Shown here piece after piece: positions 2,722 to 8,351 of a stretch of DNA of 64,000 nt (within the stretch, counting starts at the first letter, position 1; every line of letters starts with the position of its first letter). The stretch is taken from contig CAIJRN010000014.1 of assembly GCA_903823115.1 (NCBI GenBank), positions 1-64,000 on the forward strand, written 5' to 3'. This stretch comes from an uncultured cyanobacterium (lineage in GTDB: Bacteria; Cyanobacteriota; Cyanobacteriia; PCC-6307; Cyanobiaceae). The notes beneath the pieces were generated by a model. The model was given only the letters and a program-made list of their open reading frames with translations. It did no database searches and was not told where the DNA came from. A program made the translations under genes and the position numbers.

Positions 2722-3960
2722 TCAGGTGAACCAACAGATCGTCACCGAGATCATGCCAGCTAAAATCACAGCAGCCGGCCAATAATCATCGGCCTTGTCC
2801 AAACGATACAACGCCCTCTCCTGAGCAATGGGATCCTCAATCTTCAAAGCACTGTAATAGCGACGACAACCCCACAGCATCAACAGGAAAGAACCAAGCG
2901 TCAGCGAATAAGACACAACATAGACTTCGTCCAGGAAGGTGAGATAGGGAAGTCTTGGCATACCCGAATCCTGTGACTGCTGCAGGAAGACAAGCGTCAG
3001 CAACACCGTGACTGGCATCGTCAGCCGTACCTCCCATTGCTCCGGGTCCATTTTTGTGGCCCCCACCACCATCGCCATCACGATGGCCAACGGCACCAGA
3101 ATCTTCCAGAAAGCCGACCAGGGACCAGAAGCATATTTCACATCAAAAACAAGCTGACTGTAATCGGAGGCGCCCTCACCAAAACCAAAGTCAGTATCGT
3201 AATGATGCTTATATTCCGCCATCGACCAGCCCAAATTAACCCAACCCGTATTAGAATCAATATATTGACCAATTCCGCTTCCCTGAAGATCCGGGACAAT
3301 GCGCAAGTTGGCATAGCTCAGCAGTATGTCGTCCGCCTCCATCATGATCGGCAGGCTGAGCCTTGTGAAGGGATGAAGGCGAAAATCCTTGCGATCAATA
3401 TAGAACTTACCTTTGTAAGCCACCGTCTGATACCACTTGCCATCTTTCATTTTGATCGGCTTATCAGTACCGGTGGGGACCAACACCGTATCGGCGGATT
3501 GAGGGATATCAAGCAAGTTGACCGGAGTCATGACCTTCCAGATCTCCAGGCCAGTTTTTTGCAGGTATTGCTGCAATTCATCCCCCCACTTGAACCACAT
3601 GTAGCCTGTGCTTTCAAAGGAGGGGACTTCGGGGTCAATACCATAATTGTTCATGGCATAGATACCTACCGATATCTTCATTGGCGCGTCGTTAAACTGC
3701 TTGCGATCAAGCTGCAACTCGCGATGACTCGGCAGCCTGCCCCGATTCAGCAAATCCCCCATGCCACGATTGAGATGTCGACTTGATGGAGGCACGGAAG
3801 TCAATTCAAGATAATCTCCCGTCGTACTTGGACGATTATCAACGGAGAAAACGGCCAGTACCAACAGCAGGATCGAAGCCAGAGCCAAGAGCAAAGCCGC
3901 ACTGTTCCAGGGCTTCTGATGGGAGCGGCGAGGACGTGTTCGATCAACGGGCGTGGTCAT
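2722..3960 (-). CDS. Pentameric (Cys-loop-type) ligand-gated ion channel homologue
   Basis: 412-residue membrane protein with the layout of a prokaryotic pentameric ligand-gated ion channel. An N-terminal hydrophobic segment (about 20-40) is followed by an extracellular beta-rich domain (about 90-280). That domain has an early YAMNNYGIDPEVPSF stretch and the loop DFRLHPFTRLSLPI (192-205), at the place of the family F-P-F-D-x-Q loop. Four helices follow: M1 about 284-303, pore-type M2 about 311-328 (RLTMPVTVLLTLVFLQQS), the M2-M3 linker MPRLPYLTFLDE, M3 about 341-362, a short cytoplasmic loop and M4 about 393-411. Bacterial relatives such as GLIC and ELIC gate on protons or primary amines. It lies 44 bases after the MFS gene and ends the putative operon. 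Family assignment is from pattern; ligand and ion are unknown. Confidence 0.72.
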   Translation of the reverse strand: MTTPVDRTRPRRSHQKPWNSAALLLALASILLLVLAVFSVDNRPSTTGDYLELTSVPPSSRHLNRGMGDLLNRGRLPSHRELQLDRKQFNDAPMKISVGIYAMNNYGIDPEVPSFESTGYMWFKWGDELQQYLQKTGLEIWKVMTPVNLLDIPQSADTVLVPTGTDKPIKMKDGKWYQTVAYKGKFYIDRKDFRLHPFTRLSLPIMMEADDILLSYANLRIVPDLQGSGIGQYIDSNTGWVNLGWSMAEYKHHYDTDFGFGEGASDYSQLVFDVKYASGPWSAFWKILVPLAIVMAMVVGATKMDPEQWEVRLTMPVTVLLTLVFLQQSQDSGMPRLPYLTFLDEVYVVSYSLTLGSFLLMLWGCRRYYSALKIEDPIAQERALYRLDKADDYWPAAVILAGMISVTICWFT

Positions 3961-4004
3961 GGCTGGATGGCACTGGAGGGAAAGAGAAGACTTTGAGGGC
4001 CCGC

Positions 4005-5168
4005 CTATTCAGGCTGAAGCTGGGATAAACAGTAAATAAAATAGGCAAGTGCCGTCAAAACAGTGACATAAACAATGCCATCAGCGATTCCGGCACCCAT
4101 CAAAAAGCCAATCAAGATCACGGCGATGACTCCACCAAGATTATCCATGATGGAGTAGGCAACATTGGCAGAAACCTGGTCTTCCTGGCGAAAAAGATGA
4201 CCAACCGTGGCCAGGCCAGTGGCGTAGATACCGCCAGCCGCACCGCCCCAGACATAAAGAAGCCCAAGAGCAATTGGATAGTTGTAAATGCCAAGAGGAA
4301 GGTAGACAGCGCAGACAACTCCCACCAGCACGCAAGACACAGTCAACAGGGTCCTGTTAACATGATCAGAGAGAGTAGAAATCACCAGGCCGAGGGTTAC
4401 AGAACCCACCATAAAAGCCGTGAGCAACAAGGCTGCACGCTCGACGGAAAGGCCATTCATCATCCCGTACAAGGTGAGAAAGGCTGGTAGGCCGAAAAAG
4501 GTGACGCCTCCCACCAGGGCAGACATCATCGGCACCGTGGCCATGCGGATCACATAGCGAAGCCTGAGGCGCGGTTGCGTGCTGATCACAGGGGCAAACC
4601 GGAGCAGCGGCAGCACAACCAGAAAGCTGATGGCAACGATACCCATGCTGGCCTGAAAGGGTCTGGCACCACCGCCAACTCCAACCATGTTCAGAACAAT
4701 GGGACCACTGGCTGTCCCCAAAGAGAGGGCCGAGCTGAAGCAACCAATCACCAAACCTCGGTATCGCTGCAGCGGCACTCCATTGATCCAGGTCTGCAAG
4801 GCGATGAGAATAAGGTAGGTTGACAATCCGAAGACAAATATACTTATGCACCACAGCGGAAAACTATGAGTTTGCGATAAAATCAACAACATCAGCAGCC
4901 GCCCACCAGTGGCCAGCATTACGGTGCCGACCAAGCCAAGTCGGAAGATAATGCCATTAATAGAACCAACAATCACCAGGACAGAAGCCACCTCAAACGA
5001 GAGACATATACCGATCAGACTCTTGCTGAATCCATAATCCTCTAGTCGAACAGGGAACAGCACGGTATTGAAACCGACGGCTGCCTGGACGATCGCAGTG
5101 GCCACAATCAGACCCACCACCACAAAAGGAACCCAGCGTTCAGATTGCGCTTTAGCGAGATTCATCAA
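4005..5168 (-). CDS. Major facilitator superfamily transporter
   Basis: 387-residue integral membrane protein with about twelve hydrophobic helices and almost no soluble domain, typical of compact MFS permeases. A basic loop after helix 6 (RLRLRYVIRM, about 200-210) separates the two six-helix halves. STLSDHVNRTLL around 265 resembles the second-half MFS loop motif. The start codon directly abuts the stop codon of the upstream sensor gene, so the two are almost certainly co-transcribed and possibly translationally coupled. By context it may move histamine, histidine or a related amine across the inner membrane; the sequence itself does not reveal substrate or direction. Confidence 0.85.
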   Translation of the reverse strand: MMNLAKAQSERWVPFVVVGLIVATAIVQAAVGFNTVLFPVRLEDYGFSKSLIGICLSFEVASVLVIVGSINGIIFRLGLVGTVMLATGGRLLMLLILSQTHSFPLWCISIFVFGLSTYLILIALQTWINGVPLQRYRGLVIGCFSSALSLGTASGPIVLNMVGVGGGARPFQASMGIVAISFLVVLPLLRFAPVISTQPRLRLRYVIRMATVPMMSALVGGVTFFGLPAFLTLYGMMNGLSVERAALLLTAFMVGSVTLGLVISTLSDHVNRTLLTVSCVLVGVVCAVYLPLGIYNYPIALGLLYVWGGAAGGIYATGLATVGHLFRQEDQVSANVAYSIMDNLGGVIAVILIGFLMGAGIADGIVYVTVLTALAYFIYCLSQLQPE

Positions 5169-7010
5169 TCAGCTCTCGATGTACTTTTTGAATGGAATCA
5201 TAACAATCAGTTGATGTCTTGAATCTTCCGGATGCTCAAAACGAATCGAGCCGGAAACAGCACGAATCTGTTCGCAGCTTGCGGCATAGGTGAGTCGCTG
5301 TTCATCGCTGACATGACTGACCAGATCAGGCTCCTCAACGATCTCTGCCAGCTCTGATCGGTTGGCATCAGGGCCCCGATCGTCTTTCCTCAAGGCCCTG
5401 TTGTTCACCGTGCCGTCTGCGTTGTAAATAGTGCCAGTACCGTCATCCTTGATGGTGGCGATGCCAGACGCAGCTTCGCCAGCATCGGCTATCGCCTTGA
5501 GTGTGAACGTTTCAGCTTCTTCAAAAAGATCGTCCTGCTCGCTGGAGATGTCGACACGAACAAGAAGAACTCCCTCAGCCGGAATCATGGGGCGATTGCC
5601 TGCAGTACCATCCCAGGAATATGTGATCCAATACTTCCCGCCATCGCTGGAGTACTCAAGACTGAAATTGGTAATAGTGGCGTCGTTGTCTGTGGTATCT
5701 GCGGTATTGCCTAGGACCAGGCTCAGCACCTGACTCTCAATGCCTGTGATCGAGAAGACGGCATAGGTCGAGGCCTCATTGACGGTGGGGCTGGAGATCC
5801 TCAGGGCATGCGTCTCCTCTTCAGCCTGATAACCGAGCCTGATCACAAGATCCAGAGCGTTCAGAGATTCGTGTTCAATATCAACGTCGACATCCGCCAG
5901 AATGCCCAGGTTTGCCCTGGCGAAGGGATGGGTCGCCAAGATCGTCAGGTTGTCGCGGAGATGATCGGCTGAGCCGCAAAGGAGCTTGGGCACGTTGCGG
6001 TTGATCTGCAACGGGATCGGATGCTGGGAGTCATGCTGGAAGGCGGCCTCAAGCACCGATGCGAGTTCAAAATTGACCATCTCGACAGGAGCTTGCCTGA
6101 GCCTGGCCTGGGCGTATTGCTGCAGAGCCTGTCCATAACCTGGCGCAACTGCTGTTGAACGGCTGTCCTCGATGGCACCGGGACCTTGCTCTGCGAGCCT
6201 TTCGGCAACAGCCGCCAATTGCATGGCGGCGGCTCTGCGATCCTGGCTGCGACCGGAGGCGATGGCATCGAGTTCGGATTCAGCCTGGAGCCGACCTTGC
6301 AGCAGGCTTTTGTTGGTGCGACGGAAATACCAGACCGTCGTGCCAAACAGCACTGCCAGAATTCCAGAGGTGAACGCAGCCCGTTGGGCAGCCACCCCAA
6401 TCGGGACCAGACGGGCCTGGAGCGTCACCAGCTCCAGATCCATACCCAGGGTTCCGACAAAACTTCCCTTTGAGTCATAAAAAGGAGCATAAGCACTATA
6501 GAAAGTTCCCCATACATCGGTATAAGGCTCTTCATCCACCGTCGCTTTGTGCTTCGTCAAGGCCTGCAGCAGGGCCTTGCCAGCATCCGGGTATGGATCC
6601 ATCAACTGGGGGGCCTCGTCAGGGCGCCCATCCTTATTGTTATCGTTCTGGGGACTGCCATTGACAACAAAATAAACTTTTCCCGAGTCAATTACGTTAG
6701 TATAAAGATAGCGAACATCCTTGGACGCCTTGCGCAGGGCTTCCAGTCTTTGGGTTAGATAGCTATATGCAGGGTCGGTTTTTGACGCCTTTGACTTGAA
6801 CTTCCTGTGCTGGTCGCCATCGATGATCGTGGCCGCAGCACTGACATTTCGCAGCAAACCATCGCGGATTTCTTCCTTAACCGCCTCCACGGCGCGCAAA
6901 TAAATAAAATGGATTGTTATATTGGTAACCGCAAGCCAAAGAACAGCAAACAAAACTCCCTGGGCTGCTGGACTCTTGAATCGCTGAAGCCAGGTACGCG
7001 ATAATGACAT
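5169..7010 (-). CDS. Cache-domain membrane sensor with degenerate kinase core and inserted Calx-beta-like domain
   Basis: 613 residues. A membrane helix at about 17-38 leads to a periplasmic Cache-type sensor domain (about 40-205, with VRYLYTNVID and YTDVWGTFYSAYAPFYD followed by G-T-L-G-M-D). A second helix lies at about 211-229. The cytoplasmic part begins like a kinase dimerisation/ATPase region (PKLLCGSADHLRDNLTILAT, about 341-360) and ends like an ATPase C-terminus (SCEQIRAVSGSIRFEHPED, about 578-596). There is no H-E-x-R-T-P phosphoacceptor motif and no clear N or G boxes. Between these parts, about 405-530, sits a beta-rich Calx-beta/adhesin-like domain with FEEAETFTLKAIADAGEAAS. It is probably a catalytically dead sensor. 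It sits between the decarboxylase gene (129-base gap) and the transporter gene (no gap). Confidence 0.7.
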   Translation of the reverse strand: MSLSRTWLQRFKSPAAQGVLFAVLWLAVTNITIHFIYLRAVEAVKEEIRDGLLRNVSAAATIIDGDQHRKFKSKASKTDPAYSYLTQRLEALRKASKDVRYLYTNVIDSGKVYFVVNGSPQNDNNKDGRPDEAPQLMDPYPDAGKALLQALTKHKATVDEEPYTDVWGTFYSAYAPFYDSKGSFVGTLGMDLELVTLQARLVPIGVAAQRAAFTSGILAVLFGTTVWYFRRTNKSLLQGRLQAESELDAIASGRSQDRRAAAMQLAAVAERLAEQGPGAIEDSRSTAVAPGYGQALQQYAQARLRQAPVEMVNFELASVLEAAFQHDSQHPIPLQINRNVPKLLCGSADHLRDNLTILATHPFARANLGILADVDVDIEHESLNALDLVIRLGYQAEEETHALRISSPTVNEASTYAVFSITGIESQVLSLVLGNTADTTDNDATITNFSLEYSSDGGKYWITYSWDGTAGNRPMIPAEGVLLVRVDISSEQDDLFEEAETFTLKAIADAGEAASGIATIKDDGTGTIYNADGTVNNRALRKDDRGPDANRSELAEIVEEPDLVSHVSDEQRLTYAASCEQIRAVSGSIRFEHPEDSRHQLIVMIPFKKYIES

Positions 7011-7139
7011 TAAGGTTAATCCTGATTTAGTAGAATTAGGCTGGATGGACTTGGCGCAATGGCAATCAATGCCGTAGCACCAGCCTGGGCAAGGCGTGGT
7101 TCGACAACCCTGGTCTTCCCGAAAATCCTGAGGACAAGC

Positions 7140-8351
7140 TTACTCATTTTTTAGGTCAACTATCAATTCAGTGATGAAAGTTTTCAGCATCGCTTCTGTA
7201 ACACCTGGCAAAGTCACGATATGGGCCAAATCGCCGCGGGTTGCCAGTTGCCATTTTCTGGCCAAATCGACGCTGGGCCTCGGGAAAACAACAATATTGC
7301 CAAAGGGATGGTGAATGCACTCAATCCCGGCATCCCGAAGCCAGAGCACGGCATCCTCAGCCAGCTGCAGCGATTGCTGGGCCAGCTCTGCCATGCCATT
7401 GCCTTTAAGCCGGGTGATCAAGGTCCATAAGATCAAGGCGGAAACGCCATCTCTGGAGCCTGAAAGAGTTGTGTCCACAGACCCCACATACTCGGCGCTG
7501 CTGCCAAACCTGGGATCTTGCTTACGATCACAGAGCACCAGGCCGCAGGGGATCGGCGTCCCCAGGAACTTATGGCCGGAGAACGAGAGGCTATGAATCG
7601 GCAGTTGGAAATCAAAGCTGGGAGCCCCTTCGATGAAAGGCAGCATCGGACCGTAGAGCGCCGCATCGACGTGAAGGTAGTACTCCTTGCAGCCCTGGCG
7701 ATCCAGGATGTTGAGCACCTCTGCTGGCGATTCAATCGCGCCGTGGAAGGTGGTTCCGACGCTGAGGTTGATGACACAGGGCTTGCCGTTGAGATCCTTG
7801 ATCTGAGAAGCGAAGGCCTCCAGATTCAGCTTGCCATCAGCATGGCAAGGGACAACGGAATGGGGCATGCGCAACAGATGGGCAATCTTCGTGAGGGAGT
7901 AATGGGATTCCTCCGAAAAGATCAGCTGGGCATCGGGGTAAGCATCCCGTCCCCGGACGATGGCATACATATTGCTCTCCGTACCACCATTGGTGATATA
8001 ACCCCAGCCCTGATTCAAGTCCAGGTGGAAAATTCCAGCAAAGAACTCCAGAACTTCCCGCTCAAAATCGCAGGTGTTGATGCCGGAATTGGGATGCCAG
8101 GGATCGCCAATATTGTTTATATTGAACTTCAGGAAATCAGCAAGAATTTTGAAATCAAAAATTCTGCTATTAGGAAAGCCAATATAATGGGCAGACCGTT
8201 CAATCAGCTGCTCGTGTAAATCATGCAGCCGGTTTTCCTGGTCAGCAGCTGGATATCGCTGATCGTTGGTCGCCCAGGGATTGTAAGTGACTCTCGATGC
8301 GATTGTGAACGGCCTCGGCTGGATCGATAAGGGACTGGATTCACAACCCAT
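7140..8351 (-). CDS. hdc: PLP-dependent histidine decarboxylase
   Basis: Group II pyridoxal-phosphate decarboxylase, most like bacterial histidine decarboxylase (histidine to histamine plus CO2). The 403-residue protein has the cofactor phosphate motif YITNGGTESNMYAI (118-131), the ring-stacking His in SEESHYS (about 150), the cofactor Asp in HVDAAL (227-232) and the Schiff-base Lys in SGHKFLGTPIPCG (258-270, Lys about 261). That SGHK plus P-I-P-C-G block is characteristic of histidine decarboxylases. It is the first gene of the minus-strand cluster, divergent from recD2 across 172 bases that must hold both promoters. Another amino acid substrate is possible, but histidine is the best guess. 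Base composition is lower in GC than the flanking core genes. Confidence 0.85.
   Translation of the reverse strand: MGCESSPLSIQPRPFTIASRVTYNPWATNDQRYPAADQENRLHDLHEQLIERSAHYIGFPNSRIFDFKILADFLKFNINNIGDPWHPNSGINTCDFEREVLEFFAGIFHLDLNQGWGYITNGGTESNMYAIVRGRDAYPDAQLIFSEESHYSLTKIAHLLRMPHSVVPCHADGKLNLEAFASQIKDLNGKPCVINLSVGTTFHGAIESPAEVLNILDRQGCKEYYLHVDAALYGPMLPFIEGAPSFDFQLPIHSLSFSGHKFLGTPIPCGLVLCDRKQDPRFGSSAEYVGSVDTTLSGSRDGVSALILWTLITRLKGNGMAELAQQSLQLAEDAVLWLRDAGIECIHHPFGNIVVFPRPSVDLARKWQLATRGDLAHIVTLPGVTEAMLKTFITELIVDLKNE

Follow-up and report, generated by a model that had tools for sequence, protein, structure and literature searches.

To our knowledge, the natural roles of bacterial pentameric ligand-gated ion channels (pLGICs) are still unknown. 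The gene set considered here occupies positions 2722–8351 of a 64,000-nucleotide stretch of DNA (the window, by which the whole stretch is meant) from contig CAIJRN010000014.1 of an uncultured cyanobacterium of the Cyanobiaceae (draft genome GCA_903823115.1; here genome G000, contig C14), a family that also includes Synechococcus sp. GreenBA-s. Its four genes encode a pyridoxal phosphate (PLP)-dependent decarboxylase, a Cache-type membrane sensor, a transporter of the major facilitator superfamily (MFS) and a pLGIC homologue, and they probably form one functional unit, the cyanobacterial version of a gene set that also surrounds the channel ELIC.

Two partial precedents have been described. 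According to the available parts of the paper by Zimmermann and Dutzler 2011 (PMC3119659), ELIC of Dickeya (Erwinia chrysanthemi) opens in response to primary amines, among them gamma-aminobutyric acid (GABA), for which the half-maximal effective concentration (EC50) is 2.4 mM; a putative amino-acid decarboxylase is encoded directly beside ELIC, whose natural ligand its describers did not know. The paper makes no mention of histamine. The second precedent is the survey of Tasneem et al. 2004 (PMC549065), whose available parts report a stand-alone Cache gene in a predicted pLGIC operon (Rhodopseudomonas) and fusions of pLGICs with periplasmic-binding-protein (PBP) and Cache domains, and propose pLGICs as chemoreceptors; in those parts the sole transporter partner is a Na+/H+ symporter (Microbulbifer) and, in a further difference from the present locus, a decarboxylase is never mentioned. 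Neither an operon nor a decarboxylase is mentioned in the available parts of PMC4795631. Among the top-ranked papers listed by literature searches, in a collection that lacks most subscription papers, only these two partial precedents turned up, and neither the complete set of four nor its presence in several phyla was seen described. The opinion of an earlier, sequence-only reading of this DNA that no such linked set had been described is only partly right: the decarboxylase–ELIC pair (PMC3119659) and the Cache–pLGIC pair (PMC549065) were already on record.

Layout and conservation of the set in cyanobacteria

The set is transcribed from the minus strand and comprises the following features, in transcription order:

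7140..8351, minus strand: PLP-dependent decarboxylase of the histidine-decarboxylase family, 403 aa, first gene
5169..7010, minus strand: membrane sensor (Cache/PDC plus histidine-kinase-like part), 613 aa, second gene, assigned from alignments, a homologue model and structural matches
5361..5810, minus strand: VCBS-type insert, about 150 aa long, that interrupts the sensor's kinase-like part
4005..5168, minus strand: MFS transporter, 387 aa, TTG start, third gene, Pfam MFS_1 match at 2e-27
2722..3960, minus strand: divergent pLGIC homologue of a cyanobacterial clade, 412 aa, fourth gene, assigned from a phmmer match to ELIC and an AlphaFold2 model

All four genes are intact and co-directional, and the open reading frames (ORFs) were found as the sequence-only reading had placed them, with intergenic gaps of 129, 0 and 44 bases. 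The genome of the window carries a second, very distant channel homologue (G000:C42:132287-132961, L071; E 4e-6), and the other parts of the set were not found in that stretch.

Homologues of pLGICs are present in 57 of the 201 genomes examined from the family. Five of the 201 (G000, G062, G105, G150 and G189) hold a decarboxylase orthologue with 55% identity or more, and the same five hold a sensor orthologue, the next best among the matches listed reaching 59 bits for the decarboxylase and 99 bits for the sensor; this confinement of both orthologues to the same genomes argues for linkage beyond chance. Weak decarboxylase matches, which made up the result in most of the 130 genomes with a match and were approximately 23–40% identical with no more than 59 bits, were dropped as other enzymes of the fold, and sensor matches below 100 bits in other family genomes as general sensors. 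A scan of a species-genome collection with two short peptide patterns and the sensor alignment, which misses distant sets without the patterns, gave eight loci, three of which are contigs of G150, G189 and G105. Of 23 chosen genomes, the 8 that bear the set, and no others, gave strong matches to the window MFS protein, the best other MFS matches in these 23 genomes being 28–29% identical (53–58 bits).

The question raised by the sequence-only reading, whether the homologues stay adjacent, is clearly answered in the affirmative by nine cyanobacterial genomes and by the two other phyla described below. The order decarboxylase, sensor, transporter, channel is complete in eight cyanobacterial genomes: that of the window, Vulcanococcus limneticus LL (L032), Synechococcus sp. 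GreenBA-s (L033), L034, L074, L075, L076 and L078, of which L075 and L076 are closely related. The ninth set is split over two contig ends (G105/L073), and its decarboxylase (contig C2, L103) reads with one in-frame TGA.

The genes that flank the set (ORFs of at least 110 aa compared at E <=1e-15) fall into five groups without common neighbours in the stretches compared, namely the window with L075, L076 and L078; L032 with L033; L034; L074; and L035/L073. Five flanking contexts rule out that the linkage is kept merely by chromosome position. For all four genes, the ratio of non-synonymous to synonymous substitution rates (dN/dS, NG86 method) was 0.05–0.18 in two genome pairs, the ratios being rough for the two genes of the window–L075 pair in which dS exceeds 1. 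All four genes are under purifying selection in the pairs tested, which excludes a relic.

A degraded 5' piece of tyrS lies upstream of the set in L075 (8055–8278) and L076 (8089–8277), with an intact tyrS downstream, as in the window; the fragment resembles the remnant of an integration event at this gene. A second channel, 36–42% identical to that of the window, adjoins the set in L075 (7287–7982), L076 (6572–7993) and L078 (7895–8917). Two of these three belong to the other family clade of the channel tree, and a PBP gene or a piece of one lies alongside them.

The set around ELIC and in Flavobacteriaceae

One of the eight scan loci (L079) belongs to Flavobacteriaceae bacterium RhTr2 and is a co-directional run of decarboxylase, channel, sensor and MFS transporter genes with gaps of -17, 12 and 6 bases. 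Its decarboxylase passes a glutamate-decarboxylase model (401 bits, cut-off 380), its channel is ELIC-like (268 bits to ELIC), and compared with the cyanobacterial set its sensor is 44% identical over 226 aa and its transporter 39% over 377 aa. A channel of the L079 type was matched in 2 of 249 genomes of its family, and in the second of these (L102) a glutamate decarboxylase gene, whose product scores 479 bits on the same model, overlaps the channel gene by 14 bases. Both Flavobacteriaceae loci also contain a DUF2589 gene within approximately 4 kb (L079 6162–6626; L102 13714–14169).

In the family of Escherichia coli (Enterobacteriaceae) an ELIC-type channel was found in 2 of 198 genomes, and both loci (L213 and L214) read decarboxylase, channel, sensor, MFS transporter, with gaps of 1, -4 and -4 bases. 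The L213 channel aligns with ELIC at 701 bits over 322 residues, a near-identity, and the genome is almost certainly that of a Dickeya; the L214 channel is 72% identical to that of L213. The enzymes beside these channels are encoded as follows:

L213 7455–8825, minus strand: decarboxylase beside ELIC or a close homologue, scoring 27 bits with the glutamate-decarboxylase model (cut-off 380)
L214 7503–8849, plus strand: decarboxylase beside ELIC or a close homologue, 17 bits on the same model

The nearest solved structure to the L213 enzyme is an L-methionine decarboxylase (219 bits), and on the histidine-decarboxylase model the enzyme scores 203 bits, under the cut-off. A glutamate decarboxylase as neighbour of ELIC, the annotation cited in the available parts of PMC3119659, was ruled out at 27 against 380 bits, the enzyme being methionine-decarboxylase-like instead. 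The decarboxylase gene lies directly upstream of the channel gene in all four ELIC-clade loci found (L079, L102, L213 and L214).

The window thus shares with the ELIC neighbourhood a PLP decarboxylase directly linked to a pLGIC, and the Cache sensor and MFS genes that follow in L213 and L214 complete the likeness: decarboxylase, pLGIC, Cache sensor and a transporter of this MFS family are clustered and co-directional in the window as well. The two arrangements differ in that the channel stands second around ELIC and last in the window, and the channels are only 21–23% identical. The four genes are inherited together, and clusters of these four kinds of protein occur in three phyla. Relatives outside chromosomes were also sought. 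Six stretches of viral contigs fitted the pattern in a scan with the sensor alignment and none held a relative; plasmids gave no match to the L213 sensor, 26 records at most 27% identical to the L079 transporter among the matches listed, and a single distant relative of the L079 channel, from Legionella, in whose stretch no decarboxylase was annotated or detected.

The four components differ in how far they have diverged. When the cyanobacterial sets are compared with those of the other two phyla, the transporters are 38–42% identical and the sensors 39–44% over the first 223–262 aligned residues (the Cache part), or 31–34% where BLAST spanned most of the protein. Channel identities across phyla are 20–26%, often over partial lengths and with L102 included, and those of the decarboxylases, which are all Pyridoxal_deC proteins of different type, 21–33%. 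A quick maximum-likelihood tree of 101 channels, which calls for caution about long branches and from which L037, L072, L073, L077 and L103 (duplicates, fragments and channel-less loci) and matches covering fewer than 200 model positions were excluded, unites the nine cyanobacterial set channels in one clade (support 100), next to L036 and nested in a large clade of cyanobacterial channels. L079 and L102 join the ELIC group in a separate clade (support 99), and these two sides are parted at the deepest split with a support of 85, so that the window channel stands apart from the ELIC clade. Despite the long branches the tree agrees with identities in the same alignment, in which the set channels are approximately 40–60% identical to neighbouring cyanobacterial channels versus approximately 18–21% to the ELIC group.

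As judged from these comparisons, one type of transporter and sensor is accompanied by two distant types of channel and by three types of decarboxylase. Such a mosaic would suggest that channel and enzyme were replaced or were recruited separately, changes that would be pointless unless a pLGIC and an amine-making enzyme were both needed.

The four encoded proteins

Three of the family assignments made by the sequence-only reading, a PLP histidine decarboxylase, an MFS transporter (Pfam MFS_1, E-value as listed above) and a pLGIC homologue, were borne out, and that of a Cache-domain sensor was confirmed through relatives of the protein. The decarboxylase passes the NCBIfam histidine decarboxylase model NF002748 (390 bits, cut-off 305), on which two of its homologues score 359 and 336 bits, and matches Pfam Pyridoxal_deC at 4.8e-18; phmmer comparisons with serine and histidine decarboxylase structures gave values of approximately 1e-75 to 1e-78. 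It resembles the bacterial PLP histidine decarboxylase (PDB 7eru/7erv), with which it aligns at about 260 bits, the difference being that a plant serine decarboxylase scores the window enzyme about equally. We know of no channel or Cache sensor as a neighbour of the 7eru/7erv enzyme. The specificity site of the plant enzymes is Tyr111 in AtSerDC and Phe106 in CsAlaDC, according to the available parts of PMC11407765. In the window enzyme a GFPN motif aligns with the GYPF or GYPY of the plant enzymes, Asn replacing Tyr/Phe. With Asn at this site a plant-type serine/alanine decarboxylase was rejected, and the substitution speaks against serine as the substrate; the product would most likely be histamine, formed from histidine.

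The sensor consists of a periplasmic Cache/PDC domain between two predicted membrane helices followed by a cytoplasmic histidine-kinase-like domain, the latter, split by the VCBS-type insert, having been overlooked by the sequence-only reading. The Cache match of the window protein itself is under the Pfam cut-off (E 0.034), so the assignment is based on relatives, of which L079 narrowly passes MCP-like_PDC_1 and L034 matches dCache_1 at 2.6e-5, under the cut-off, and on an AlphaFold2 model of the L033 homologue built from an alignment of 10 sequences (mean predicted confidence, pLDDT, 79.7; predicted TM score, pTM, 0.46). In this model a PDC fold is found between the two membrane helices: periplasmic residues ~40–205 match the sensor domains of CitA, DctB and DcuS with Z 11.7–13.3 (CitA: Z 13.3, root-mean-square deviation (rmsd) 2.7, 130 aligned; DctB: Z 12.9, rmsd 3.6, 167 aligned). 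The kinase-like part matches GacS (Z 14.9, rmsd 8.8 over 253), RetS (Z 14.0, rmsd 4.5 over 182) and the ETR1 catalytic domain (Z 13.7, rmsd 3.1 over 136). The periplasmic part, at ~165 aa, has the size of a single module, in comparison with the dCache_1AM amine sensors, which have a double Cache domain with an amine motif (PMC10104139).

The only invariant His across the 10 sensors is His68, in the periplasmic part, and in the helices before the catalytic-like domain no column has His in at least 6 of the 10 proteins. The missing conserved phospho-acceptor His rules out an ordinary histidine kinase, and, the only invariant His being periplasmic, a pseudo-kinase that would act by contact is expected. 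The insert at 5361–5810 is missing from homologues of 458–462 aa and common to L075, L076 and L078 (62–75%); being in frame and shared in this way, it is unlikely to be an assembly error. It had no Pfam match above the cut-off, and in a tblastn search an Eleftheria terrae plasmid gave a 49% match, to one of the repeats in a VCBS-domain protein. A Calx-beta domain, also considered for the insert, received no support from Pfam, and the plasmid search points to a VCBS-type repeat.

The channel has no significant Pfam match and scores 38.7 of 500 bits on NCBIfam LGIC_1 (7.5e-10, under the cut-off), while phmmer matches it to ELIC at 2.7e-13 and to GLIC at 1.8e-7. An AlphaFold2 model (alignment of 31 sequences, 4 of them ELIC-like; mean pLDDT 81.7) has the pLGIC architecture, in which an extracellular beta-sandwich domain precedes four membrane helices: it shows a beta-domain followed by membrane helices within residues 280–411; its best Foldseek match in the PDB is an ELIC entry (E 2.7e-18, TM score 0.75 by target length) and the 50 best rows are all pLGICs. 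GLIC and sTeLIC share this fold, and differ in being named proton-gated and alkaline-pH-gated, respectively, in their PDB entry titles. Hallmarks of pLGICs are the Pro-loop (PF motif), the ligand-box aromatics and the M2–M3 proline. These motifs are present in the window channel, in which P197, Y120, E208, Y254, Y267 and P335 align with ELIC, and P197, E208 and P335 are invariant in 31/31 sequences. Residues of the ELIC ligand site and pore were mapped from the available parts of PMC3119659, with the exception of Glu77. Tyr38 (Y120), Glu131 (E208), the Tyr at 174/175 (Y254) and the aromatic at Phe187/188 (Y267; the numbering differs by one between sources) are kept, and the acidic E310 sits one place from the pore-mouth glutamate of ELIC, a position which suggests that the channel may be cation-selective.

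The wider surroundings of cyanobacterial channels were surveyed on 37 channel ORFs kept by greedy gene selection in L032–L071 and the window, a procedure by which a few channels were displaced by overlapping ORFs. A protein of the Peripla_BP_6-type cluster is the direct neighbour of 17 of these ORFs, and an Orn/Lys/Arg-decarboxylase-type protein (PF01276) lies within three genes of 9, one representative of each having been scanned; these neighbours occur mostly in a block of conserved gene order. In L040, L068, L069 and L070 another channel clade lies between dnaJ-type and delta-aminolevulinic acid dehydratase genes (proteins of L070 scanned), and the cyanobacterial loci L189 and L192 hold adjacent pairs of channel ORFs.

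A putative amine unit and its alternatives

With linkage conserved in three phyla, once around ELIC itself, the proposal of the sequence-only reading that the genes make, move, sense and gate a current with an amine stands as a well-supported interpretation of the set. The decarboxylase would make a primary amine from one amino acid, here most likely histamine; the MFS protein would carry the amine across the inner membrane, either alone or in exchange for the amino acid, the proposed direction being towards the periplasm. There the amine could be read in two ways: rapidly by the pLGIC, whose cation pore would open and change the membrane potential or ion content, and slowly by the Cache sensor, which may signal through its degenerate kinase-like domain by protein contact.

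A number of observations weigh against this interpretation. A decarboxylase of this type is missing from the vicinity of the channel at most of the pLGIC loci examined: with a screen by the Pyridoxal_deC-type model only, which misses other folds such as the Orn/Lys/Arg decarboxylase, none was found near the channel in 20 stretches of 18 Bacteroidota genomes (a further matching genome, G748, being left out), in 12 gammaproteobacterial and 20 further cyanobacterial stretches searched with the same profiles, or, the set loci aside, in the 40 family stretches, which cover some but not all of the weaker family matches. In two genomes of one genus, G032 and G074, the stretches around a related channel (60% identical, and 72% over a fragment) hold no decarboxylase or sensor, the G074 contig being only 4.8 kb long, and L102 has neither sensor nor MFS gene near its decarboxylase and channel. 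The window enzyme scores almost as high against the structure of bacterial histidine decarboxylase, at 260 bits, as against that of plant serine decarboxylase, at 266 bits. In the channel, Phe133 of ELIC is replaced by Asp, Asn103 by Thr, and Glu77, which we take to be a ligand-box residue, also by Thr; the ligand-box residues that are kept are equally present in channels outside the set and therefore do not indicate amine specificity.

A more specific version of the amine unit is put forward tentatively, as a possibility that falls somewhat short of an even chance. The set would be an exchangeable transmitter cassette, with a fixed core of MFS transporter and pseudo-kinase sensor and swapped decarboxylase–pLGIC pairs, each channel being the receptor for the amine made by its neighbour: histamine in the window, GABA in L079, and for ELIC the product of the methionine-decarboxylase-like neighbour and not GABA. 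Variation of enzyme and channel by lineage while transporter and sensor stay the same fits such a matched enzyme–receptor pair.

Among the alternatives, acid or energy homeostasis without cell–cell signalling survives best, although we regard it as unlikely. Decarboxylation would consume a proton, the MFS protein would swap amino acid for amine, the channel would act as a cation leak, opened by the amine, to keep charge in balance or curb accumulation, and the sensor would regulate the set. The pairing of a decarboxylase with an antiporter is a known acid-resistance design with glutamate decarboxylase as its classic enzyme, the type used in L079 and L102, but its classic antiporters belong to the APC family and not to the MFS, and two likely readers of external ligands, Cache domain and pLGIC, exceed what homeostasis needs.

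It is still less probable that the set serves nutrient scavenging, in which channel and sensor would detect an external amine or amino acid, the channel ligand being an external nutrient, the MFS protein would take up the amino acid and the decarboxylase would process it. The proposal that pLGICs act as chemoreceptors (PMC549065, available parts) and the PBP-like gene that adjoins 17/37 family channel ORFs agree with this; however, no amine-degrading enzyme is among the four genes, and a decarboxylase type that varies beside a constant transporter and sensor is better explained by a match of product and receptor. Chance neighbourhood or hitch-hiking on a mobile piece, to which the changing location of the set and the tyrS fragment near it in L075 and L076 could point, is very improbable, being already contradicted by the order kept in nine cyanobacterial genomes (one split), by purifying selection and by the reappearance of the set in three phyla, with genes that overlap or lie close together.

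If the four genes do form an amine unit, the pairing of differing channels with neighbouring amine-making enzymes across three phyla would give a testable ligand prediction for each channel, including the natural trigger of ELIC, and the set may represent a bacterial parallel to the arrangement of transmitter, transporter and receptor at animal synapses.

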